DNA from: Spirochaetales bacterium
GTDB taxonomy: Bacteria > Spirochaetota > Leptospiria > Leptospirales > Leptonemataceae
Assembly: GCA_015075425.1 (NCBI GenBank)
Contig: JABTUL010000001.1
Coordinates: forward strand, 1,178,001 to 1,242,000
Direction of reading: 5' to 3'
DNA length: 64,000 bases
Part shown: piece by piece, positions 29,062 to 43,434 of the stretch
Numbering within the stretch: position 1 is the first letter of the stretch
Layout of the letters: every line of letters begins with the position of its first letter
Made by a program: the position numbers and the translations under genes
Notes under the pieces: generated by a model
Databases searched by the model: none
Told to the model about the DNA's origin: nothing
Seen by the model: only the letters and a program-made list of their open reading frames with translations

Positions 29062-29134
29062 TCCCCTGTAGCTCAGTCGGTAGAGCAGTTGGCTGTTAAC
29101 CAATTGGTCGTAGGTTCGAGCCCTACCGGGGGAG
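29062..29134 (+). tRNA. tRNA-Asn (GUU)
   Basis: A 73-base cloverleaf: acceptor TCCCCTG/CGGGGGA, D arm with AGCTCAGTCGGTAGAGC, anticodon loop CTGTTAA (GTT), T arm GTAGG/CCTAC with TTCGAGC, discriminator G, then genomic CA. Its 3' end is the attachment point of the island. Immediately downstream lies an inverted partial copy of its anticodon and T arms. Confidence 0.95.
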
Positions 29135-29180
29135 CAGATTAGAACACGGTCGAACCTACGACCGATAGGTTAACAGAAGA
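29125..29180. repeat. att-like site 1: tRNA-Asn 3' end plus inverted tRNA-Asn piece
   Basis: TACCGGGGGAGCA of the tRNA end is followed by ~12 bases and then GTCGAACCTACGACCGATAGG, the reverse complement of the tRNA-Asn anticodon/T-arm region with a few changes. The same composite recurs at 35343-35397 (inverted) and 37957-38000. Confidence 0.75.
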
Positions 29181-29298
29181 ATTGCTGGAAGGCCTCAATT
29201 CCACAAATTAGCGCAGAATTTTGCAGACCGGCAGTTTTCATCTGATATGCTTCAATACTGGACTTTATAGGTTAACACCGGACCAGATAGTCCAAAAA

Positions 29299-31257
29299 CT
29301 ACCTCTCATGATCCGGTTGGACTCGCAAAATTTTATTAATAGTGTTTGCTTGCCATTTTCCACCCTGCTTTGTCGGTATCCTTCGCCTGTTCAATTCATC
29401 TGCAATGGCGCGCAGCGACTCCCCACTTTTCTGCATCTGTCGCATTAGCATGATGGCCTTTTGCTCTTCATCGTTCATGACCAGCTTTCCATCGTGCTTT
29501 TCAAATCCGAAAGGAGCGCGTCTTGTTAATCCTGTACTGCGCTCTGGCCCCAGAAGGCCAAGCCGGTAGATGGCTGTACCAATAGCGGTGGGAGAAACCT
29601 TTAGTTGTCGAGCAATCTCATTACGGCTGAGGCCATTTCGCAATAGCTGTTCCAGCAAGGCACGGCTTCGTAAAAGAAAGATACCTGGCAGAGGCACTTT
29701 TTCTTCAATCACAGGCGCAGAGCTATCCTTGTCATGACTTTTTACCCCAGGTGCAAACAAGGGAAGTCGGATACTGAGTTCTGTGTCTTTAAGGGCAATG
29801 CTGGCCACAAAGGCTTTGATTTTTTGGCGGGTCATTTCGTTTTCCTTTAATTCTTGCGCGGCCTCCTTGCTGAAAATCTTCAAGAGTGAAGCAGGATTCG
29901 CTTGGCTGGACGCCAGAAGCCTTTCCACTTGATCTCTGTTTTGATTCTTAGCCAGCAGGAGAAGCTGGTGCTCTGACTGAAGCTGTGCAATGTCGTTTTC
30001 CAGATTGCGGCGCACCTCCGTCAAAGTGACCAGTCTGAGCTGGGACAATCGCTCTTCGATCTGGCGTGATAGTTCTTCCGTCTTCCGGTGCAATCGCTCC
30101 TGTTCTTTTCCAAGTTCACCGGTTCTCTTTTTAACCTGACCCTGGATTTTCTGGGCCAGAGCTGGATCAAGCTGGCGTGATCTGCTTAATTTTTCTAAAT
30201 AATTTAGAACCAGTACTTCCACGGCTTCGGAGGGAATGCGCTCATGCAGAGCATTCTCAGGACAGGATTTCCGGTGTGCGTAGTATCTCCGGTAGCTGCC
30301 GGACCTGGAGCGAGCACTTTTCCCGCTCAAGGGCTCTTTGCAGGCAGCACAAACTAAAATTCCTGAGAGCCAGTAGTTGAAAGATTTTGCATTGGAGTTA
30401 TTTTTCCGGCCCTTCTGGAGCAGTATCTGTGCTTCATCAAAAGTTTTCTGGTCAATGAGGGCTGGCCATGCAGCCGGGACTTCTGATTGCTGTTCGTCGC
30501 CACTCAATTCACGCAACCCCAGATAGCTGCGATTGCGCAAAATGTAATAGAAAGTGGAGCGACTGATACGCCCCAGATCGGGATGGTCTCGAAATTTGCG
30601 CCGGATTTCTTCGAGTGTTTTTCCGGCTGAACCCAGCCGGACATATCCGCGAAAAATAGCCCGGACCATTTGTGCTGAATCATCCATGAGAAGATGACCC
30701 TTGCGTTCTGGATCTCGTTTGTATCCCAGAGGAGGCAGGCCACCATTGGCCAGGCCACGTTTGGCACGTTCACGGGCATTGCGGCTGGTGCGCTCTGCCG
30801 TGATTTCCCGTTCAAATTCGGCAAAGACCATCAGGATCTTCACCACAAGATTGCTGAAAGGTGAAGTGGTATCGATGACCGTCTTGAGGCAGACCAGGTC
30901 GCACTGGTGATGCTGGACATATTCAAAGATATTCAGAAAGTCTCTGAGGGAACGGGAAAGACGGCTCAACTCCGTGAAGAAGATGGCATCGACGGCCCCG
31001 CGCTCGACATCGGCCAGGAGTCTCTTGAATTCCGGGCGGTCCATGCTCTTGCCGGAAAATCCGCCATCAATATATGTATCCACCAGGCGGCCCCAGGCTT
31101 CGCCGGTATTGCGTCGTTCCAGCTCTGCCTGGAGCATCTGCTGCTGGTTCTTGAGTGAACCTTCCTGCACCTGTGCCTGACGTTCGGTGGAAACGCGTAC
31201 ATAGAAAGCCACCCGGCGGACCTTCTGTCCGCCGGTGGCTGATTTCTGTCTGGCCAT
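29299..31257 (-). CDS. Large serine recombinase, cassette copy A
   Basis: A 652-residue site-specific recombinase. Resolvase catalytic domain at about 13-155 with nucleophile Ser23 (YVRVSTERQ); recombinase DNA-binding domain about 175-270; zinc ribbon with C303, C306, C332; long coiled coil about 365-450; a helix-turn-helix at 543-563 (LSRNEIARQLKVSPTAIG). An unusual C-terminal segment (582-645) repeats the pattern of the internal recombinase domain. It is the only intact full-length copy without an altered N-terminus. Its ATG overlaps the stop of the 48-residue gene. Its 3' end points at tRNA-Asn, so it probably mediated insertion there (inference). Confidence 0.93.
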   Translation of the reverse strand: MARQKSATGGQKVRRVAFYVRVSTERQAQVQEGSLKNQQQMLQAELERRNTGEAWGRLVDTYIDGGFSGKSMDRPEFKRLLADVERGAVDAIFFTELSRLSRSLRDFLNIFEYVQHHQCDLVCLKTVIDTTSPFSNLVVKILMVFAEFEREITAERTSRNARERAKRGLANGGLPPLGYKRDPERKGHLLMDDSAQMVRAIFRGYVRLGSAGKTLEEIRRKFRDHPDLGRISRSTFYYILRNRSYLGLRELSGDEQQSEVPAAWPALIDQKTFDEAQILLQKGRKNNSNAKSFNYWLSGILVCAACKEPLSGKSARSRSGSYRRYYAHRKSCPENALHERIPSEAVEVLVLNYLEKLSRSRQLDPALAQKIQGQVKKRTGELGKEQERLHRKTEELSRQIEERLSQLRLVTLTEVRRNLENDIAQLQSEHQLLLLAKNQNRDQVERLLASSQANPASLLKIFSKEAAQELKENEMTRQKIKAFVASIALKDTELSIRLPLFAPGVKSHDKDSSAPVIEEKVPLPGIFLLRSRALLEQLLRNGLSRNEIARQLKVSPTAIGTAIYRLGLLGPERSTGLTRRAPFGFEKHDGKLVMNDEEQKAIMLMRQMQKSGESLRAIADELNRRRIPTKQGGKWQANTINKILRVQPDHER

Positions 31258-31403
31258 CAGGCTGCGAGGCGCTTTTTGTATCTTTTGCGCAAGCGGCAGA
31301 GCCTTCTGCCGGTGCGCTCAATACCTTTGCGGTTCTTGAGCCGGACCTGACGGCGCATTTCCTGCATCAATCTGTCATGGGCCTTCTGGTATATGGCTTC
31401 CAT
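31257..31403 (-). CDS. 48-residue basic peptide, cassette copy A
   Basis: MEAIYQKAHDRLMQEMRRQV, then KNRKGIERTGRRLCRLRKRY, ending KKRLAA. About one third of residues are Lys or Arg and the sequence is predicted helical. Start and stop overlap the neighbouring genes (TAATGG upstream, TGATGG downstream), so it is made in step with both. Conserved in four cassette copies, including between diverged ones, which argues for a real gene. It may bind DNA or the recombinase; a recombination directionality factor is one possibility. Confidence 0.75.
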   Translation of the reverse strand: MEAIYQKAHDRLMQEMRRQVRLKNRKGIERTGRRLCRLRKRYKKRLAA

Positions 31404-31792
31404 TAGACCATACCTGCGAAGAGCGGGAATTGCTCATGAGTGAGCTGGTCAAAGCCTGCTCTCAAAAGAGCCATGTCCCAGACCATGGCATGCTGTTCCA
31501 GACAGGCCCGCACAAAAGCATCCGTATGCACATTGTGGACAATGATTTCCACCTGTTCCCGGATGCGCAGATAGAACGGGAGCCAGATTTCTGCCGTGAT
31601 GGCAAATTGCATTTCCCGGTCTGTGAGATCATCCGTGGATTGTTCCACACAAATGGCTTCACCCCGGTGAATGCCATACTGGATGAATGTTATGTCCAGT
31701 TGTTGGTTGCCCTTGTGAACTGAGATGCAACCCTGCTGGCGCAGAGCTGACCATCCGCCAAAGGCCCCGATGATACGCTGGATTGAATTCAT
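31403..31792 (-). CDS. DUF6908-like protein, first gene of cassette A
   Basis: A 129-residue protein. The pattern (IQRIIGAFGGWSALRQQG…LTDREMQFAITAEIWLPFYLRI…F…ACLEQHAMVWDMAL) resembles DUF6908, small proteins found on mobile elements; this is recognition by pattern and needs a profile search. A strong AGGAGG precedes the ATG. It is the first of three overlapping genes ending in the recombinase. Confidence 0.65.
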   Translation of the reverse strand: MNSIQRIIGAFGGWSALRQQGCISVHKGNQQLDITFIQYGIHRGEAICVEQSTDDLTDREMQFAITAEIWLPFYLRIREQVEIIVHNVHTDAFVRACLEQHAMVWDMALLRAGFDQLTHEQFPLFAGMV

Positions 31793-32016
31793 GTTTCCTC
31801 CTGTGCTGACTGTGCAGCCAGCGCCGGAGAACCTGTTTTCCAGGGGAGGTTGCTAAAAAATTTTCCTGAATCTGAAAATTTTTCGGCGAACCGTTTGGAA
31901 ATACAGTAAATGTATCTAAAATATCGTCAATCCATATTTGATTTTTCTGCTCAGTCGCTGTCAAATGGCGTCGATCGGTAAACTTTACCTGAGAAACAGA
32001 TCATGCGCTCCCTGTC

Positions 32017-32091
32017 GCAAAAACCATGCCGGCCCTTAATTTGCTTCTTTTGAAGATGAGGTAGTCCCTGCGAGGCAGGCATGGTTTTTGC
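32017..32091. repeat. Hairpin 1 of spacer array
   Basis: GCAAAAACCATGCC (32017-32030) pairs perfectly with 32078-32091 across a 47-base loop. Confidence 0.8.
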
Positions 32092-32203
32092 CAATCGGGT
32101 TTCAGAAGAGCGCGGGTTCACCAAGGACATGGAAGTCGTGCAGCTTGCCAGCTCACCTGTGAAGCCACAACATCAGACTGGCCCCATGAAACCGGGACCC
32201 ACC

Positions 32204-32259
32204 AATCCCCCTGAGCCCGGCCGGCCCCGCATGGTGAAGCCGGCCGGCTCAGGGGGATT
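32204..32259. repeat. Hairpin 2 of spacer array
   Basis: 32204-32224 (AATCCCCCTGAGC then CCGGCCGG) pairs with 32240-32259 with one bulged base; 15-base loop. Confidence 0.8.
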
Positions 32260-32344
32260 TTGGGGCAATCAGGAGCGATTTGACTGCAAATAGGCGAGAT
32301 GAGGTCCACTGGCTTGAAACGTTCTGCAAACCGTCCCGTTCTCC

Positions 32345-32420
32345 GCAATCCCCATGCCAGGCCGCTTCAGGAAGTATGTTAAGTATTAACTTTTCGCCTT
32401 TGGCCTGGCATGGGGATTGC
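32345..32420. repeat. Hairpin 3 of spacer array
   Basis: A perfect 19-bp inverted repeat, 32345-32363 (GCAATCCCCATGCCAGGCC) with 32402-32420; 38-base AT-rich loop. Confidence 0.85.
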
Positions 32421-32469
32421 AGATGCTAAAGGAAACAGCTTTCAATCGACTCTTCTTTGCCGACAAGGT

Positions 32470-32516
32470 GCGGCCAGTAACAGGCTCGTACCCAGCGGGA
32501 GCCTGTTACTGGCCGC
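32470..32516. repeat. Hairpin 4 of spacer array
   Basis: A perfect 18-bp stem, 32470-32487 (GCGGCCAGTAACAGGCTC) with 32499-32516; 11-base loop. Confidence 0.85.
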
Positions 32517-32544
32517 CCATGCTATGGAACGGAAAGAGCTCACG

Positions 32545-32588
32545 ATAAATCAGGGTGGCCTCGCCTCTGTGAAGCCACCCTGATTTAT
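32545..32588. repeat. Hairpin 5 of spacer array
   Basis: A perfect 15-bp stem, 32545-32559 (ATAAATCAGGGTGGC) with 32574-32588; 14-base loop. Confidence 0.85.
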
Positions 32589-32766
32589 GGCGGGGCAAAT
32601 GGCTATATAGATATATCATTAGCTTTTAAGAGCAATATTGCTCTTTGCCCCTCTGAAGCTTGATTCTTGTTCGCCGAAAAATTTTCAGATTCAGGAAAAT
32701 TTTTTAGCAACCTCCCCTGGAAAACAGGTCATCCAGGCGCGCTGCACAGTCAGCACAGGAGGAAAC

Positions 32767-33153
32767 ATGAATTCAATCCAGCGTATCATCGGGGCCTTTG
32801 GCGGATGGTCAGCTCTGCGCCAGCAGGGTTGCATCTCAGTTCACAAGGGCAACCAACAACTGGACATCACATTCATCCAGTATGGCATTCACCGGGGTGA
32901 AGCCATTTGTGTGGAACAATCCACGGATGATCTCACAGACCGGGAAATGCAATTTGCCATCACGGCAGAAATCTGGCTCCCGTTCTATCTGCGCATCCGG
33001 GAACAGGTGGAAATCATTGTCCACAATGTATACGGATGCTTTGTGCGGGCCTGTCTGGAACAGCATGCCATGGTCTGGGACATGGCTCTTTTGAGAGCAG
33101 GCTTTGACCAGCTCACTCATGAGCAATTCCCGCTCTTCGCAGGTATGGTCTAA
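32767..33153 (+). CDS. DUF6908-like protein, first gene of cassette B
   Basis: A 128-residue near-identical copy of the cassette A protein. Two small deletions (2 and 1 bases, near 33028-33045) cancel, changing NVHTDAFV to NVYGCFV and keeping the frame. AGGAGG precedes the ATG at 32767. Its stop overlaps the 48-residue gene. Confidence 0.65.
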   Translation: MNSIQRIIGAFGGWSALRQQGCISVHKGNQQLDITFIQYGIHRGEAICVEQSTDDLTDREMQFAITAEIWLPFYLRIREQVEIIVHNVYGCFVRACLEQHAMVWDMALLRAGFDQLTHEQFPLFAGMV

Positions 33154-33299
33154 TGGAAGCCATATACCAGAAGGCCCATGACAGATTGATGCAGGAAATG
33201 CGCCGTCAGGTCCGGCTCAAGAACCGCAAAGGTATTGAGCGCACCGGCAGAAGGCTCTGCCGCTTGCGCAAAAGATACAAAAAGCGCCTCGCAGCCTGA
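33153..33299 (+). CDS. 48-residue basic peptide, cassette copy B
   Basis: Same sequence as in cassette A, open and coupled on both sides (TAATGG, TGATGG). Confidence 0.7.
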   Translation: MEAIYQKAHDRLMQEMRRQVRLKNRKGIERTGRRLCRLRKRYKKRLAA

Positions 33300-35223
33300 T
33301 GGCCAGACAGAAATCAGCCACCGGCGGACAGAAGGTCCGCCGGGTGGCTTTCTATGTACGCGTTTCCACCGAACGTCAGGCACAGGTGCAAGAAGGTTCC
33401 CTCAAGAATCAGCAGCAGATGCTCCAGGCAGAACTGGAACGACGCAATACTGGCGAAGCCTGGGGCCGCCTGGTGGATACATATATTGATGGCGGATTTT
33501 CCGGCAAGAGCATGGACCGCCCGGAATTCAAGAGACTCCTGGCCGATGTCGAGCGCGGGGCCGTCGATGCCATCTTCTTCACGGAGTTGAGCCGTCTTTC
33601 CGTTCCCTCAGAGACTTTCTGAATATCTTTGAATATGTCCAGCATCACCAGTGCGACCTGGTCTGCCTGAAAACTGTCATTGATACCACATCCCCATTCA
33701 GCAATCTCGTGGTGAAGATCCTGATGGTCTTTGCCGAATTTGAACGCGAAATCACGGCAGAGCGCACCAGCCGCAATGCCCGTGAACGTGCCAACGTGCT
33801 CGCCAATGGTGGCCTGCCTCCGGGATACAAACGAGATCCAGAACGCAAGGGTCATCTTCTCATGGATGATTCAGCACAAATGGTCCGGGCTATTTTTCGC
33901 GGATATGTCCGGCTGGGTTCAGCCGGAAAAACACTCGAAGAAATCCGGCGCAAATTTCGAGACCATCCCGATCTGGGCGTATCAGTCGCTCCACTTTTAT
34001 TACATTTTGCGCAATCGCAGCTATCTGGGGTTGCGTGAATTGAGTGGCGACGAACAGCAATCAGAAGTCCTGGCTGCATGGCCAGCCCTCATTGACCAGA
34101 AAACTTTGATGAAGCACAGATACTGCTCCAGAAGGGCCGAAAAATAACCCAATGCAAAATCTTCAACTACTGGCTCTCAGGAATTTTAGTTTGTGCTGCC
34201 TGCAAAGAGCCCTTGAGCGGGAAAAGTGCTCGCTCCAGTCCGGCAGCTACCGGAGATACTACGCACACCGGAAATCCTGTCCTGAGAATGCTCTGGATGA
34301 GCGCATTCCTCCGAAGCCGTGGAAGCACTGGTTCTAAATTATTTAGAAAAATTGCCAGATCACGCCAGCTTTGATCCAGCTCTGGCCCAGAAAATCCAGT
34401 GGTCAGGTTAAAAGAGAACCGGTGAACTGGAAAAGAACAGGAGCGATTGCACCGGAAGACGGAAGAACTATCACGCCAGATCGAAGAGCGATTGTCCCAG
34501 CTCAGACTGGTCACTTTGACGGAGGTGCGCCGCAATCTGAAAACGACATTGCACAGCTTCAGTCAGAGCACCAGCTTCTCCTGCTGGCTAAGAATCAAAA
34601 CAGAGATCATGGAAAGGCTTGGCGTCCAGCAAGCGAATCCTGCTTCACCTTTGAAGATTTTCAGCAAGGAGGCCGCGCAAGAATTAAAGGAAAACGAAAT
34701 GACCCGCCAAAAATCAAAGCCTTGTGGCCAGCATTGCCCTTAAAGACACAGAACTCAGTATCCGACTTCCCTTGTTTGCACCAAAAGTCATGACAAGGAT
34801 AGCTCTGCGCCTGTGATTGAAGAAAAAGTGCTCTGCCGGTATCTTCTTTACGAAGCCGTGCCCTGCTGGAACAGCTATTGCGAAATGGCCTCAGCGTAAT
34901 GAGATTGCTCGACAACTAAAGGTTTCTCCCACCGCTATTGGGCACAGCCATCTACCGGCTTACTTCTGGGGCCAGAGCGCGCAGCACAGGATTAACAAGA
35001 CGCGCTCCTTTCGGATTTGAAAGCACGATGGAAAGCTGGTCGCATGAACGATGAAGAGCAAAAGGCCATCATGCTAATGCGACAGATGCAGAAAAGTGGG
35101 GAGCTGCTGCGCGCCATTGCAGATGAATTGAACAGGCGAAGGATACCGACAAAGCAGGGTGGAAAATGGCAAGCAAACACTATTAATAAAATTTTGCGAG
35201 TCCAACCGGATCATGAGAGGTAG
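33299..35223 (+). pseudogene. Frameshifted large serine recombinase, cassette copy B
   Basis: Begins intact (MARQKSATGG…YVRVSTERQ, catalytic Ser23 present), but a one-base deletion near 33600 shifts the frame within the catalytic domain. Further indels follow near 33795, 33990, 34110, 34300, 34400 and beyond. Homologous protein segments continue in alternating frames to the final NKILRVQPDHER. It cannot make a full recombinase. Confidence 0.9.
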
Positions 35224-35342
35224 TTTTTGGACTATCTGGTCCGGTGTTAACCTATAAAGTCCAGTATTGAAGCATATCAGATGAAAACTGCCGGTCTGCA
35301 AAATTCTGCGCTAATTTGTGGAATTGAGGCCTTCCAGCAATT

Positions 35343-35397
35343 CTTCTGTTAACCTATCGGTCGTAGGTTCGACCGTGTTCTAATCTGCTCCCCCGGT
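35343..35397. repeat. att-like site 2 (inverted)
   Basis: GTTAACCTATCGGTCGTAGG resembles the sense tRNA-Asn anticodon/T-arm region; after GTTCGACCGTGTTCTAAT comes CTGCTCCCCCGGTA, the antisense tRNA 3' end. It marks the junction between cassette B and the rve-transposase unit. Confidence 0.7.
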
Positions 35398-36312
35398 ATG
35401 CAGGGCGCACCCGCCAGCCGCAAATTGCTAAAATTATTTGTCCCCTTCCTGGAGAGCTGCGCTTCCTATCGCACCAGACCCCAGCAACAGGGCAGTTTCT
35501 TGCCTGTTTCTTGCGCTCCGCCACCGGTTCAATCGCATTTTTCTGATCGCCATCACCACGAAATTCCCGGCTTGTCTATCAAACTTCTGTCAGGGCAGTT
35601 TCGCGTCCGCAAAGAACAGGGCTTTCAGCCCTGAATCATCCGATAGCGATGCTCCGCAAGAGCCGCAATATTTTCCGCTTCTGTCTGCATCTTTCCTTTT
35701 ACTATCAATTTTGAAAGCACCCTGCAATCCTCAACCTACCAGAGCCACTTCCTCTTCCCGTATTTTTTCCACTTGCTCCCACCCATGTCGGAGCAGCGGC
35801 CACTGGCAGGAGGAGCCGGCGGGGAAGAGTGGAACTTGAAGTTCCAACCTCAAATTGGTGCGAATTTTCTCTGGACAGAGCATCCGTTTCACTTCCGTTT
35901 CCATCCATGCCTCTCAAACTGTACAGGCTTCTTCGTAACCGGTCAACTTTTATTTTGATTTCTCTCATCTGTTTTCTGTTGATGCAGCTCTCATTGTATC
36001 GCCGCCGGCACCCCGTCTCAAAGCTCAAAACTCGGGAACGGTTTCTCCTGCGTCAGGCATGTCGTCTGCTACCTGCCGATCTCTGGCCATCCTTCCTTCT
36101 CATTGTACAGCCTCAAACACTGGTGCGCTGGCATGATTCCCTCTGGAATCTCATCCATCGCCTGAAATCTATCATCGGAACCTGGCTCTCCCGCAAACGG
36201 GCCGGACGTCCCCTGGAATACAGGGAAATCATCCGCATTCTCAAGCAAATCGTTCCGGAAAATCCACTCTGGGGAACGGTGCGGATCCAGTCTGAACTGA
36301 TGCATCTGGTGT
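35398..36312. repeat. Left arm of second inverted repeat
   Basis: Roughly the reverse complement of 37017-37935, with several indels. It carries degraded small genes and the N-terminal half of an rve transposase. Confidence 0.8.
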
Positions 36313-36337: not shown

Positions 36338-37400
36338 CTATGCGGGCTCCTTTTGCCAGCTGTAGATATGATGCAGACCGTTCAGCGCTGGCTGTGAAAC
36401 GAGGATGGACTCGGGTGATCCCCGCGATATGGGGCGGCCAAGGGGTGTCTGGCCAGCAAGGCCCATGTGTGGGCGCGGATGGTTATAGTAGCGGACGTAC
36501 TGTTTCAGGAGGATCCTTGCATGCTTTTCTGTGCAGACAATAACCTGATCCAGAAGTTCTGTCCTCACGGAGCGGATCCAGCGTTCCGCGAAAGGATTCT
36601 GCCAGGGGGAGCGGATGGCCGTGCGACAGGGTGTGAGTCCACAGCTTTTGATGCTGTCCCGCACAGCTGTGTTGAAGATCGAGTCATGATCAAAGATAAG
36701 ATAACGAAACTCATGCTCCCAGGAGAGAGCCTCTTTGATTTGTTGTGTGACCCAGAAAGCTGTGGGATGGAAGGATACATTGAAGTGACGGATACGTCTT
36801 GTGGCATGTTCGATCATGAACCAGCAATACAGAGTCCGACCCGGGAATATCTTGATGGTGAAAAAATCCATGGCGAGGATGGCTGTAGCCTGATTTTTGA
36901 GGAAGGTTTTCCAGCGGTCACGCAAGCGGATGAGACGCGGGTCTTGCGGAAACAGCCGCTTGATATAGCGTCGCAATGTGGTCAGTGGAACAGCATGGCC
37001 CAGATGCATCAGTTCAGACTGGATCCGCACCGTTCCCCAGAGTGGATTTTCCGGAACGATTTGTTTGAGAATGCGGATGATTTCCTGTATTGCAGGGGAC
37101 GCCCGGTCTGTTTGCGGGAGAGCCGTGTCTGATGATAGATTTCAGGCGATGGATGAGATTCCAGAGGGAGTCATGCCAGCGCACCAGTGTTTGAGGCTGG
37201 ACAATGAGAAGGAAGGATGGCCAGAGATCGGCAGGTAGCAGACGACATGCCTGACGCAGGAGAAACCGTTCCCGAGTTTTGAGCTTTGAGACGCGGTGCC
37301 GGCGGCGATACAATGAGAGCTGAATCAATAGAAAACAGATGAGAGAAATCAAAATAAAAGTTGACCGGTTACGAAGCAGCCTGTACAGTTTGAGAGGCAT
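36338..37400 (-). pseudogene. Frameshifted rve (DDE) transposase
   Basis: The N-terminal half (same as the plus-strand copy) starts near 37400. A one-base deletion near 37135 breaks the frame. The C-terminal half in the other frame (36338-37030) has a complete DDE integrase core: AMDFFTIKIF, IFDHDSIF, and PFAERWIRSVRTELLD. The family is an IS481/IS3-like integrase-core group. It is interrupted, so probably inactive unless frameshifting occurs. Confidence 0.75.
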
Positions 37401-37586
37401 GGATGGAAACGGAAGTGAAACGGATGCTCTGTCCAGAGAAAATTCGCACCAATTTGAGGTTGGAACTTCAAGTTCCACTCTTCCCCGCCGGCTCCTCCTG
37501 CCAGTGGCCGCTGCTCCGACATGGGTGGGAGCAAGTGGAAAAAATACGGGAAGAGGAAGTGGCTCTGGTAGGTTGAGGATTGCAGG

Positions 37587-37772
37587 GTGCTTTCAAAATT
37601 GATAGGTAAAAGGAAAAGATGCAGACAGAAGCGGAAAATATTGCGGCTCTTTGCGGAGCATCGCTATCGGATGATTCAGGAGCTGAAAGCCCTGTTCTTT
37701 GCGGACGCAGAGCGTTTCACTGCCCTGACAGAAAGTTTGATAGACAAAAGCCGGGAATTTCGTGAGTATTAA
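37587..37772 (+). CDS. Possible small protein next to att site
   Basis: A 61-residue open frame, RKRCRQKRKILRLFAEHRYR followed by an acidic helical half (ADAERFTALTESLIDKSREF). The inverted copy at ~35580-35700 does not preserve this frame, so indels may affect one or both. The stop overlaps the GTG start of a 38-residue frame. Function unknown. Confidence 0.35.
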   Translation: MLSKLIGKRKRCRQKRKILRLFAEHRYRMIQELKALFFADAERFTALTESLIDKSREFREY

Positions 37773-37878
37773 CTACTACGATCTGGCCTGGCAAATGCGA
37801 TTGAACCGGTGGCGGGAGCGCAAGAAACGGCGCGAGGCCTTACGGATGCATTTGCAGCGCTGGGGTCTGGTGCGATAG
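37762..37878 (+). CDS. Possible 38-residue basic peptide
   Basis: From GTG at 37762: MSINYYDLAWQMRLNRWRER, then a Lys/Arg-rich helix to WGLVR. It overlaps the upstream frame by 11 bases. Size and charge resemble the 48-residue cassette peptide although the sequences differ, so it may be the analogous gene of another element type. Confidence 0.35.
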   Translation: MSINYYDLAWQMRLNRWRERKKRREALRMHLQRWGLVR

Positions 37879-37956
37879 GAAGCGCAGCTCTCCAGGAAGG
37901 GGACAAACAATTTTAGCAATTTGCCCTGGGGGTGCGCCGTGCACACCGGGGGAGCA

Positions 37957-38000
37957 TTATAGACACGCTCGAACATAGGACCGATAGTTACACACGAAAA
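37957..38000. repeat. att-like site 3
   Basis: CACCGGGGGAGCA (tRNA-Asn 3' end) followed by TTATAGACACGCTCGAACAT and AGGACCGATAGTTA, a diverged version of site 1. It lies ~100 bases past the 3' end of recombinase C. Confidence 0.65.
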
Positions 38001-38101: not shown

Positions 38102-40042
38102 CTAATTGGGCCGGTTCAGAATAATTGCAACCGTGCGGGCAAACCAGTTCCCGCCCTGTTTCGTTGGTACTTTGCGTTTATTTAATTCAACTGCAATCGC
38201 CCGCAGTGATTCTCCATTCTTCTGCATCTGTTTCATGAGCATGATTGCTTTTTGTTCTGCTTCGTTTTTGACCAGCTTTCCGGCGTATTTGTCGAATCCG
38301 AATGGAGCGCGTCTTGTGCGACCAGAGTTTCCCTCTGGACCTAAAAGACCAAATCGATAGATGGCCGTGCCGACCGCTGCTGGTGAAGTTTTCAGGTGTC
38401 GTGCAATTTCATTGCGACTGAGTTTTTCTTTATCCAGAAGATGCTCCAGCACCGCACGGCTGCGCAGGAGAAGGAGTCCCGGAAGGCTGACTCGATCTTC
38501 GATCACAAGAGCGGATTCCGTTTCCGCATTGAGGCTGCCAGGTTTTCCGGCCACAAGGAGTGGCAGGCGAAACAAGAGTTCTGTATCTTTGAGGTCAATG
38601 CTGGCCACGAAGGCCTTGATTTTCTGACGAGTCATTTCGCCTGATTGAATGTTTTGGGCAGCGTTCTTTTCGCAGACTTTCAGGAGCGTATGGGGCTGCT
38701 GTTTGCTGGCGGCGACCAGTCCTTCGATGGCCGTCCGGGTGTGTTGCTGGGAGATGAGAAGAAGCTGGTGCTCGGACTGAAGTTGTGCGATTTCGTTTTC
38801 CAGATTGCGGCGCACCTCCGGCAGAGTGACCAGTCTGAGCTGGGAAAGGCGCTCTTCGATCTGGCCGGAAAGTTCTCTGGCTTCCTGCTCCAGTTGGTTG
38901 CATTTTTTTTCAAGTTCTCCCGTTCGCTTGTTCACCTGCTTTTGAATCTGCCGCAGAAGTTCAGAGTCAAGCTGGCGGAAGCCATTTAACTTTTGTAAAT
39001 GCTGGCAGACCAGGGCTTCCACGTCATCGGCCGGGATGCGCTCATGCAGGCCCTGCTCGGGGCAGGATTTTCGGTGTGCATAGTATCTCCTGATCCTGCC
39101 GGATGCAGAGCGGGCGCTCTGGCCGCTCAGGGGTTGCTTGCAGGCGGCACAAAAGAGCGTACCCGAAAGCCAGTAGTTGAAAGACTTTGCGTTGCCCGTT
39201 TGATTTCTGCCCTTCATGAGAATCTGCTGCGCCTGGTCAAAGGTTTCCCGGTCTATGATAGCGGGCCAGGCTGCCTGAACTTCTGAGGTCAGGTCCTCGT
39301 CAGTGATTTCACGCAACCCCAGATAACTACGATTGCGCAGAATATAATAGAAAGTGGAACGGGTGATGCGCTTCAGATCGTGATGGTCTCGAAATTTGCG
39401 CCGTATTTCTTCCAGTGTTTTCCCGGCTGAGCCCAGCCTGACATAGCTGCGAAAGATGGCCCGGATGATCTGGGCGGAATCGTCCGCGAGAAGATGGCCC
39501 TTGTGGTCAGGATCTCGTTTGTATCCCAGGGGCGGCAGGCCTCCATTGGCCAGGCCACGCTTCGCCCGTTCACGGGCATTGCGGCTGGTTCGTTCTGCGG
39601 TGATTTCCCGTTCAAATTCGGCGAAGACCATCAGAATTTTCACCACAAGATTGCTGAAAGGGGAAGTGGTATCTATGACAGTTTTCAGGCAGACCAGATC
39701 GCAGTGGTGCTGCTGGACATATTCAAAGATATTCAGAAAGTCTCTGAGGGAACGGGAAAGACGGCTCAACTCCGTGAAGAAGATGGCATCGACGGCCCCG
39801 CGCTCGACATCGGCCAGGAGTCTCTTGAATTCCGGGCGGTCCATGCTCTTGCCGGAAAAGCCGCCATCAATGTATGTATCCACCAGGCGGCCCCATGCTT
39901 CGCCGGTATTGCGTCGTTCCAGTTCTGCCTGGAGCATCTGCTGCTGGTTCTTGAGGGAACCTTCTTGAACCTGCGCCTGGCGTTCGGTGGAGACCCGGAC
40001 ATAGAAGGCCACCCGGCGGACCTGGTGTCGTGCGAGTGGCAT
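38102..40042 (-). CDS. Large serine recombinase, cassette copy C (5' end altered by intron)
   Basis: A 646-residue recombinase paralogue of copy A. The catalytic domain is almost identical to A and D, while the zinc-ribbon, coiled-coil and C-terminal parts differ in many positions. All motifs are present (YVRVSTERQ; CAACKQPLSG; RNEIARHLKTSPAAVG; C-terminal PFGFDKYAGKL). A group II intron on the opposite strand replaced the first ~11 codons. An ATG inside the intron end (40042) now gives MPLARHQVRRV, so a functional protein is still possible. Normal operon coupling to the 48-residue gene is lost. Confidence 0.88.
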   Translation of the reverse strand: MPLARHQVRRVAFYVRVSTERQAQVQEGSLKNQQQMLQAELERRNTGEAWGRLVDTYIDGGFSGKSMDRPEFKRLLADVERGAVDAIFFTELSRLSRSLRDFLNIFEYVQQHHCDLVCLKTVIDTTSPFSNLVVKILMVFAEFEREITAERTSRNARERAKRGLANGGLPPLGYKRDPDHKGHLLADDSAQIIRAIFRSYVRLGSAGKTLEEIRRKFRDHHDLKRITRSTFYYILRNRSYLGLREITDEDLTSEVQAAWPAIIDRETFDQAQQILMKGRNQTGNAKSFNYWLSGTLFCAACKQPLSGQSARSASGRIRRYYAHRKSCPEQGLHERIPADDVEALVCQHLQKLNGFRQLDSELLRQIQKQVNKRTGELEKKCNQLEQEARELSGQIEERLSQLRLVTLPEVRRNLENEIAQLQSEHQLLLISQQHTRTAIEGLVAASKQQPHTLLKVCEKNAAQNIQSGEMTRQKIKAFVASIDLKDTELLFRLPLLVAGKPGSLNAETESALVIEDRVSLPGLLLLRSRAVLEHLLDKEKLSRNEIARHLKTSPAAVGTAIYRFGLLGPEGNSGRTRRAPFGFDKYAGKLVKNEAEQKAIMLMKQMQKNGESLRAIAVELNKRKVPTKQGGNWFARTVAIILNRPN

Positions 40043-42054
40043 GGCCACGTAACAAAGGGTGTAAGTCCCGAGGAGGCCCTGACGGAGGGAACTCCACACC
40101 TATGATGGCAAGGGCCAGATTGTGAGGTCTGGTCTGGTGGAAGCCTATGGTGAAATGGAAGCCTGAATGCGTTCAGCGTGAACCGCTGGAAGGCCTGTGC
40201 AAATGGATGAGTTAGCGACTGGTAGCGAAGTCCTGTATCCGTTGGTGTTGCACAGGTAGAGGCGGCAGGTAGTCCATGAAGTTGCGTGTGTCTTACCCAC
40301 TGAGATCTCCTGGCCTCCACGCAGGAGTGGTAATTGTCGAGGAGGACGAGACAATGAAGGGACAGGAGAAGTCGGACGACTCCATAGTACCGAAAAGTCG
40401 GCGAAAGTCGAAAGCGTCCCGCAAGGGAACAGGGAAGGGAGTCGCGGCCAGTAAAGATGCAGATCAACTGAAACTGTTTCAGGCTTCAGCTGAAAACCCG
40501 AAAGGGAGCTCTGGCCCACCGGTTGCAGACCCATCTGCTTCTGGAAGGTTCAAGCGGCCTTTGAGCTTGAGCATCGACAGCAAAGATCTGCCGGCGATGG
40601 CGATGGAAGAGATAGCAACACTGCCCAATCTCTATGTCGCTTTTGAACATGTGCGGGCCAACCATGGGTCGGGTGGTCCGGACAAACAGAGCGTGTAAGA
40701 AGTAAAGGAGCAAATCGACGATGTTGTGAAACGTCTTCGCATCGAGCTGCTTTCCGGGAACTACTACCCTGGTATGATACGCAGGGTCTGGATTCCAAAA
40801 CCGGGAGGTGGCAAGCGCGGTCTGGGTATTCCCAATGTCATCGATCGCATTGTGCAGCAGGCTTTTCTGCAAATCATACAGCCCCATTACGAAATGACCT
40901 TTCACGATTCCAGTCACGGGTTTCGACCCGGTCGAAGTTGTCACACGGCCCTTGCGGAAGCGAAAAGCTACATGGAAGAAGGATTGACCTGGGTCGTTGA
41001 TATAGACCTGGAAAAGTTCTTCGACCGAGTAAATCACCAGCGGCTTATCGTCCGCCTTGAAAGGCGCATAACAGATAAACGAGTTATGACGACGATCAAG
41101 AGGATGCTCAAAGCGCGGGTGGTGCTTCCTGATGGTTTGGTGGAAAGCGTGGAAGAAGGAGTCCCGCAGGGTGGTCCTCTGTCTCCTCTCCTGAGCAACA
41201 TTGTTCTGGATGAGCTGGACAGGGAACTGAGTCGCAGAGGGCATAGGTTCGTTCGCTATGCTGATGATAGTAACATCTATGTCGGCAGTGAACGGGCCGG
41301 TCTTCGCGTGATGGCATCAGTCAGTCGATTCATCGAAAAGAAGTTGCGACTGAAAGTGAATGCCAGTAAAAGTGCTGTGGCTGCACCGGATACGCGTCAT
41401 TTTCTGGGATTTTCCCTGAAGTATGATGCGGCAGACGGATCAGTTGCTGTGGCACTCTCGCGCAGAACCCATGAGCGGATAGCCCGAAGGATTGTTGAGT
41501 TGACGCCCAGAAACTGGGGCGGCTCCATCGACAGCTGTATTCGGCACGTGAATAGATACCTTCGCGGCTGGATGGGATTCTTTCGCATCTGTTCTGAGCC
41601 GGAGAAATATTTTCTCAGACTCTGGGATGCGCACACACGCAGACGGCTTCGAGCCATTCACCTCAAGCAATGGAAGAGACGTCGTTTCATTTATCGAAAG
41701 CTAATCAAGCTGGGAATAAAACCGAAGACGGCGAGCATGGTCTACTCGCGCAAGAGGAAAACTCTGGGCTCTATCGCACTGCTATGCAGTCGACAGGGCC
41801 TTGAACAACAGCTACTTCGCGCAAATTGGCCTGCTTTCTCTTGCTGCATTGTGGGATGAGTGGAATCCCGTGGCAAAAGTTCATAAAACCATCGCTTCAG
41901 GGCAATTACTGCTCTTTGAATAACTGAGTCCAGCCCAGCGCTGGAGTTTCCGCATTACCTGACGGAACGGCGGAATCCCGAAGAGCCGGATGTGAGATCC
42001 ACAAGTCCGGTTCTGTGAGAGCCGGGGGCGGGAGACGGCCCCCGGCTACTCGAC
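40030..42054 (+). mobile_element. Group II intron
   Basis: It starts GTGCGAG and has AAAGGGTGTAAGTCCC near the 5' end, typical of bacterial group II introns. It ends CTACTCGAC. Comparing copies C and D places the insertion exactly between GGTGTC and CGCCGGTGG of the recombinase 5' region. Domain V is at about 41983-42013 (GAGCCGGATG…AAGTCCGGTTC) and a domain VI stem follows. The intron is antisense to the recombinase gene, so splicing cannot restore that mRNA. Confidence 0.9.
40354..41859 (+). pseudogene. Group II intron reverse transcriptase/maturase with internal stop
   Basis: AGGAGG lies nine bases before ATG 40354. The protein has RT blocks (RRVWIPKPGGGKRGLGIPN; SSHGFRPGRSCH; EGVPQGGPLSPLLSN), the YADD active site, and the maturase X/GIIM domain (YLRGWMGFFRIC). 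A TAA at 40696-40698 splits it in frame between GPDKQSV and EVKEQID, where a Glu codon (GAA) is expected, so one substitution explains it. The downstream ATG at 40726 could give a 377-residue product lacking the RT N-terminus. Confidence 0.85.
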
Positions 42055-42822: not shown

Positions 42823-43065
42823 ATGTTAACACATAAGCAGTTACTTGAGCGTATCTCGATCAACCCGGCCATTTGCGGAGGCAAGCCCTGTATAAAAGGA
42901 CACCGGATCTGGGTTTCGCTGATGCTTGATTTTCTCGCTTCCGGGATGAGCACTGATGACATATTGAGCGAATATCCCCAGCTCACGGCTGAAGATATTC
43001 GGGCTTGCATGGCTTATGGATCTGAAATGACCCGGGAACGCATGGTGCATATTGCTGAGCGGTAG
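42823..43065 (+). CDS. DUF433 family antitoxin
   Basis: An 80-residue protein with RISINPAICGGKPCIKGHRI and VSLMLDFLASGMSTDDILSEYPQLT, the classic DUF433 winged-helix pattern. DUF433 proteins pair with DUF5615/PIN-like toxins as VapBC-type modules. Its stop abuts the toxin ATG (TAGATG). The module sits between cassettes C and D and has replaced the 3' part of recombinase D. Confidence 0.9.
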   Translation: MLTHKQLLERISINPAICGGKPCIKGHRIWVSLMLDFLASGMSTDDILSEYPQLTAEDIRACMAYGSEMTRERMVHIAER

Positions 43066-43434
43066 ATGAAGATCAAACTTGACGAGAACCTCGGCACGCG
43101 AGGTTTGAAGCTATTAAAGGAAAGCGGCCACGACGTGGCAACCGTGGTCGACGAAGATCTTTCCTCAGCATCAGATGATATACTGATCGAAATATGCCGC
43201 GCTGAAGAACGCGTTCTCATCACCTTTGACAAGGATTTCTCCAGCATTCTGCGCTTCCCGCCGCAACGATACGCAGGGGTCATAGTGCTCAGGCTCGCTG
43301 AACCATTCACCCTGCCAGACATTGAAAATGCGCTTCAACGCTTCCTGGCGGCATCGACTGGACAAAATCTGACCGGCCGCCTATGGATCATAGATTCGGA
43401 GCGTATCCGGGAATTTGATACACAGGGAGACTGA
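43066..43434 (+). CDS. DUF5615 PIN-like toxin
   Basis: A 122-residue protein, MKIKLDENLGTRGLKLLKES, then VVDEDLSSASDDILIEICRAEERVLITFDKDFS (quoted in part), with the conserved D-E-N and D-x-D positions of the Mut7-C/PIN-like fold. Probably an RNase toxin. It starts right after the DUF433 gene and is intact, so the pair may be functional and stabilise the island. Confidence 0.88.
   Translation: MKIKLDENLGTRGLKLLKESGHDVATVVDEDLSSASDDILIEICRAEERVLITFDKDFSSILRFPPQRYAGVIVLRLAEPFTLPDIENALQRFLAASTGQNLTGRLWIIDSERIREFDTQGD

Follow-up and report, generated by a model that had tools for sequence, protein, structure and literature searches.

Why would a gene-free spacer between two inverted copies of an integrase operon carry five long hairpins? 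The question arose from a window of 64,000 nucleotides (C1:1178001-1242000) in the genome of a Spirochaetes-related bacterium, which comprises 4.13 Mb in four contigs. An initial annotation had suggested that these hairpins could be recombination or replication structures, protein-binding palindromes or a structured RNA.

Organization of the spacer and its flanking arms

The spacer had been placed at 31891-32669, with 779 bases; it exists, although its length is 777 bases (31892-32668), and all five annotated inverted repeats, including three perfect ones (19, 18 and 15 bp), could be located. The five hairpins, designated A1, B, A2, C and D (Table 1), have stems of 15–21 bp and occupy positions 32017-32588, with AT-rich flanks (0.54–0.62) on either side of the hairpin block (0.45–0.48). 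Their density is far above chance, as had been claimed: perfect inverted repeats of at least 14 bp with a loop of at most 40 nt did not appear in any of 300 dinucleotide shuffles, and the spacer folded as DNA with a z-score of -12. In the whole 64-kb window, four of the five such repeats are inside the spacer. Likewise, we scanned ca. 139 kb, made up of the window plus 20-kb stretches from contigs C2 (three) and C1 (one). Of the 19 hairpins with at least 13 net pairs, 16 were in spacers of this kind, the other three being found at the tRNA-Asn junction (one) and in two F repeats (one in each). The comparison of the frames of three homologous spacers (see below) revealed no conserved coding frame, in agreement with the annotation, and frame-versus-frame matches were mainly due to the conserved hairpin B and to weak short fragments. 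The hairpins had also been described as unrelated to each other, which we could not sustain, because A1 and A2 form one family, with the common structure GCA(A)..CATGCC../..GGCATG..TTGC, and a tip of the form CCGC-N-GTGA/GCGA recurs in B, C and D.

Table 1. Coordinates, in the 64-kb window, of the hairpins and of the element that contains them.
Feature	Position	Strand	Remarks
tRNA-Asn(gtt), insertion target	29062..29135	+	3' end ACCGGGGGAGCA = shared att core
Left arm E of large inverted repeat	29125..31891	-	97% identical to right arm
Large serine integrase, intact, 652 aa	29299..31257	-	Resolvase, Recombinase, PHROG integrase
48-aa Arg/Lys-rich protein, integrase operon	31257..31403	-	
129-aa DUF6908-like protein, first operon gene	31403..31792	-	
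Single-copy spacer between arms	31892..32668	.	777 bases
Hairpin A1	32017..32091	.	Stem 17/18 bp, loop 39 nt
Hairpin B	32204..32259	.	14 bp + 7 bp past one-base bulge; tip CCGC-ATG-GTGA
Hairpin A2	32345..32420	.	Perfect 19 bp stem, loop 38 nt
Hairpin C	32470..32516	.	Perfect 18 bp stem, loop 11 nt
Hairpin D	32545..32588	.	Perfect 15 bp stem; loop inverted with respect to homologues
Right arm E', inverted copy	32669..35397	+	Integrase gene broken by frameshifts and stops
att-like core, inverted, E'/F junction (attP-like)	35386..35397	-	
Outer repeat F, with transposase pieces	35398..36309	.	
Outer repeat F'	37000..37944	.	92% identical inverted copy of F
Third att-like core, start of next decayed unit	37945..37956	+	

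The left arm begins inside the 3' end of the tRNA-Asn gene and, outward from the spacer, each arm contains genes for a 129-aa protein, a 48-aa basic protein and a 652-aa serine integrase. The latter belongs to the large serine integrases, being a long protein in which a Resolvase N-terminal domain is combined with a Recombinase domain (Pfam Resolvase, 8e-37; Recombinase, 1.5e-20; PHROG integrase, 5e-113), and its Zn ribbon match falls just under the cut-off. Two more distant members of the alignment of the 129-aa protein reach DUF6908 (best E value 2.7e-5); the protein from the window is itself below the match level, and its predicted fold gave no confident match against the PDB. In each arm, the DUF6908-like gene is preceded by an AT-rich quasi-palindrome, AAAATTTTCCTGAATCTGAAAATTTT (31858-31886 and 32674-32702), which is conserved in other copies and is a possible operator. 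Also, the element side of the att junction contains an inverted copy (29150-29176; 25 of 27 bases) of the anticodon-to-T-arm segment of the tRNA-Asn gene (29093-29119), a diverged version of which is found in the next unit, at 37957.

Tandem arrays at tRNA genes and distribution of the element

The spacer belongs to a symmetric mobile element with a serine integrase, inserted at the 3' ends of tRNA genes, of which it forms the conserved, single-copy centre. These elements form arrays that start at tRNA-Asn in the window and at tRNA-Ser in contig C2, and the tRNA 3'-end core recurs at the element ends with both target genes. The C2 array reads tRNA-Ser, E_a, spacer, E_a', F1, X1, F1', E_b, spacer, E_b', F2, X2, F2', E_c, so the units between cores are of the types E-spacer-E' and F-X-F'. 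The cores alternate in orientation, both in the window (+ 29125, - 35397, + 37945) and in C2 (+ 6604, at tRNA-Ser; - 12675; + 23283; - 29358; + 40923), as expected of circular elements with two inverted attP sites. Within a unit, E and E' are 97–99% identical, and F and F' 92–98.6%; between units, E repeats are only about 77–85% identical and F repeats are unrelated, which suggests that the inverted repeats were homogenized inside separate circles. As deduced from this organization, the tandem insertion of different circular elements, whose arms would be kept alike while circular, is the simplest reading of the arrays.

The X cargo in the first C2 unit includes an Lnt-like gene; since some of this cargo looks chromosomal, F-X-F' might be host DNA. 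In the second C2 unit, the cargo (L010 11095-18404) resembles a defence cluster, with genes for HNH, an OLD-like ATPase, a type III restriction enzyme, an N6/N4 methylase and a TIR protein. No replication gene family was recognized among the ORFs scanned, including those in the X cargo. The second, decayed unit of the window has its integrase operon split by a group II intron (40030-42053; Rfam D1-D4-3, Intron_gpII; reverse transcriptase ORF at 40726-41859), and contains a toxin-antitoxin-like DUF433/DUF5615 pair (42823-43434) at the expected site of the spacer; a PIN-domain gene (L011 3645-4061) occupies the corresponding site in the decayed C2 copy.

Run against its own genome, a covariance model (R1) built from the A hairpins matched only element spacers, and it gave no matches in 119 other genomes. 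As in REP/BIME sequences, the palindromes are clustered in intergenic DNA, but they are not dispersed; this restriction of R1 to element spacers led us to discard a REP family, which would have many dispersed copies. Within the genome, we found the tip motif five times, always in these hairpins or in a B-like hairpin at C1:1387157. This B-like hairpin is followed by an A-like one (C1:1387164-1387303; L012 7165-7304), downstream of two small ORFs and near the CHC2/TOPRIM primase gene of an adjacent element, indicating that these hairpin types also exist outside the palindromic elements. The B/C/D tip motif had a handful of matches in the 119 other genomes, and the six that we checked had no long stems and were attributed to chance.

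Searches of plasmid, phage and viral collections with the DUF6908-like protein, the spacer DNA, the integrase and the B hairpin found no close relative. Across genomes, an integrase scan retrieved only two near relatives, from the Spirochaetia MAG Bin_58_12, where it is located at a tRNA-Ser gene in a contig that ends where the arm would end, and from the MAG HGW-Elusimicrobia-2, in a contig (L056) that encodes a 42%-identical serine integrase, the end of which lies next to a tRNA-Asn gene. The targeting of tRNA genes may thus be a trait of this integrase group; neither contig extends to a comparable hairpin block.

Conservation of the stems and its possible causes

The initial annotation considered that the palindromes would be incidental if homologous spacers lacked them. 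The same genome contains two other intact homologous spacers (C2:9255-10021 and C2:25952-26697) and, once set in the same orientation, both carry all five hairpins in the order A1-B-A2-C-D and with similar spacing (gaps of 97–112, 79–99, 42–50 and 17–28 nt), an outcome that favours the annotation. A fourth copy is decayed and retains A1 and B. Identity between copies is 77–83% in paired columns and 46–49% in unpaired ones, and 95.9% of the cells pair in a three-way alignment, a signal that is lost when the stem partners are slid. Covariation, which the annotation had proposed as a check, is also evident, with 19 double-sided pair changes versus 6.4 in shuffled alignments (none of 500 shuffles was as high), in a sample of three intact copies from one genome that share ancestry, so that these counts are not independent events. 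Likewise, the A family showed 27 double-changed cells, versus 8.9, and no one-sided changes. From 360 stem positions, 352 were Watson-Crick pairs, one was G-T, five were A-C and two were other combinations. On the evidence of these alignments, it is the folding of the stems, rather than their letters, that matters in the hairpin block. Protein-binding palindromes of fixed sequence are not consistent with these data, because the letters of the stems change while pairing is retained.

Three further characteristics concern orientation. The side of the spacer facing the tRNA gene differs among copies, A1 being nearest in the window and in copy C2c, and D in copies C2a and C2b. The loop, or tip, of D is flipped in the window with respect to its homologues and, within one spacer, the tip motif of B faces opposite to that of C.

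Strong covariation and a maintained order would also suit a structured non-coding RNA of the element, or a set of hairpin RNAs. Such an RNA could, for instance, be bound by the 48-aa Arg-rich protein and regulate the two divergent integrase operons, and the arm operon does code for this small, very basic protein. GOLLD and ROOL are mobile-element RNAs of several hundred nucleotides with covarying stems, and the spacer resembles them in having several hundred nucleotides of covarying stems near a mobile element. It differs from them in that it has no Rfam match (the search of the spacer produced only sub-threshold chance matches, none at the gathering threshold), G-U pairs are nearly absent and one tip is inverted between copies. 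G-U pairs are scarce on both strands, and this, together with the opposed tips of B and C and the flipped D loop, weakens the idea of one continuous RNA; additionally, a promoter scan of the spacer gave a signal at about chance level. We therefore regard an RNA as a possible, although doubtful, explanation.

The near absence of G-U pairs, the opposed B and C tips and the flipped D tip fit instead with folding at the DNA level and with template switching. This process homogenizes the arms of inverted repeats and inverts the sequence between them (PMC8604942), and it also yields double Watson-Crick changes (PMC8794818). Covariation can partly reflect template switching instead of selection (PMC8794818) and, in these spacers, does not suffice to demonstrate an RNA. 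Alternatively, the hairpins could be long inverted repeats of little function, passively kept corrected by template switching, a process whose marks are an inverted loop and double changes that are almost purely Watson-Crick (PMC8794818, PMC8604942). We consider such passive persistence unlikely because it leaves unexplained the conservation of the same five positions and their order, the conserved stem cores and tips, and the nearly exclusive location in these spacers; the fixed positions of the five folds, in particular, call for selection.

It is similarly improbable that the hairpins separate the two divergent copies of the operon by terminating transcription in both directions or by acting as insulators. 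Their stems are stable and fully paired, and the B-like hairpin found elsewhere in the genome comes directly after a small ORF; against this, the operons point outward, leaving nothing obvious to terminate inside the spacer, most stems are not followed by T runs, and the loops of 38–39 nt in the A hairpins are atypical. The spacer contains three terminator-like sites, a number close to the 1.7 given by chance, none of which is a full main stem, and the scan did not identify the hairpins as intrinsic terminators, that is, a GC-rich hairpin followed by a T tract.

As in integron attC arrays, a series of hairpin-forming sites is here linked to a recombinase, and the initial annotation had proposed a comparison with attC sites. 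However, no pair of attC core sites (RYYYAAC / GTTRRRY) flanks the stem bases in the three spacers, no cassette genes separate the hairpins, and the att-like cores of the resident integrase are at the outer ends of the arms and not in the spacer, so that a role as recombination sites, whether attC or att, is largely refuted and very improbable. Finally, the 97–99% identity of the arms and the frameshifts in one of them could evoke an assembly fold-back artefact, which is hardly credible given that the arrangement recurs at three separate loci whose arms differ, uses two different tRNA targets and encloses a spacer that is not palindromic, and that a related tRNA-Ser cassette in another MAG ends where the arm would end.

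A putative cis-acting DNA locus of a proposed integrative plasmid

From the three options put forward by the annotation, recombination or replication structures are the best supported. We tentatively propose, with less than even confidence, that the five hairpins are a cis-acting DNA locus of an integrative plasmid, most likely involved in its replication or maintenance. The element would be a present or past circular integrative plasmid with two inverted attP-like sites, which the integrase would insert at tRNA genes by attP x attB recombination. The hairpin block would most likely be its replication origin or a copy-number or maintenance site, acting as folded single-stranded or cruciform DNA whose shape, together with the conserved tips (CCGC-N-GTGA) and stem core (CATGCC), would be recognized by a protein from the host or the element. 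Because no replication gene was recognized in the scanned ORFs, a free form of the element would need a cis-acting origin somewhere. Against this proposal, we did not find a free circular form, an initiator protein, a nick site or iterons, and the spacer contains no DnaA boxes.

The arms would allow the centre of the element to flip by recombination. To our knowledge, large serine integrases do not normally recombine attP with attP and, hence, the integrase itself would not be expected to cause a Flp-like flip; flipping may rather occur as the two arms recombine homologously.

Integrative plasmids that target tRNA genes have been described, such as pHS87b from Pseudomonas aeruginosa (PMC4739549). 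The element shares with pHS87b-type plasmids the site-specific insertion at tRNA genes and an integrase of its own; unlike them, each of its units has mirror symmetry and carries an inverted pair of att-like sites and a duplicated integrase operon, no replication gene was recognized and it is known from integrated copies. The symmetry is instead reminiscent of the yeast 2-micron plasmid, with its Flp/FRT inverted repeats (PMC3147054). As in this plasmid, the integrated copies contain two unique regions parted by inverted repeats that bear recombination sites, and the two orientations of the spacer imply flip-flop isomers. The differences are a large serine integrase versus the tyrosine recombinase Flp, repeats of about 3.7–4.5 kb versus 599 bp, and a bacterial host with integration at tRNA genes. 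In the 2-micron plasmid, the recombinase drives inversion, coupled to double rolling-circle amplification; of this behaviour, the copies in the genome show the two orientations of the spacer. It appears rather unlikely to us that the element is a full bacterial counterpart of the 2-micron plasmid. This would be a selfish circle with halves parted by inverted repeats that bear integrase sites; it would flip, perhaps amplify, and rely on a five-hairpin DNA origin, instead of a conventional replication protein, to replicate or segregate.

In these spacers, part of the covariation is probably a product of template switching at the DNA level, and they can serve as a worked example of this for the calling of new RNAs from covariation. 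They are also a clear and testable case of a multi-hairpin DNA locus, located centrally in a symmetric bacterial element, whose shape is kept even though its sequence drifts. Should the block prove to be an origin or maintenance site, it would define a new origin type and, should the inverted att sites work like those of the 2-micron plasmid, the element would represent convergent evolution of that strategy in bacteria.
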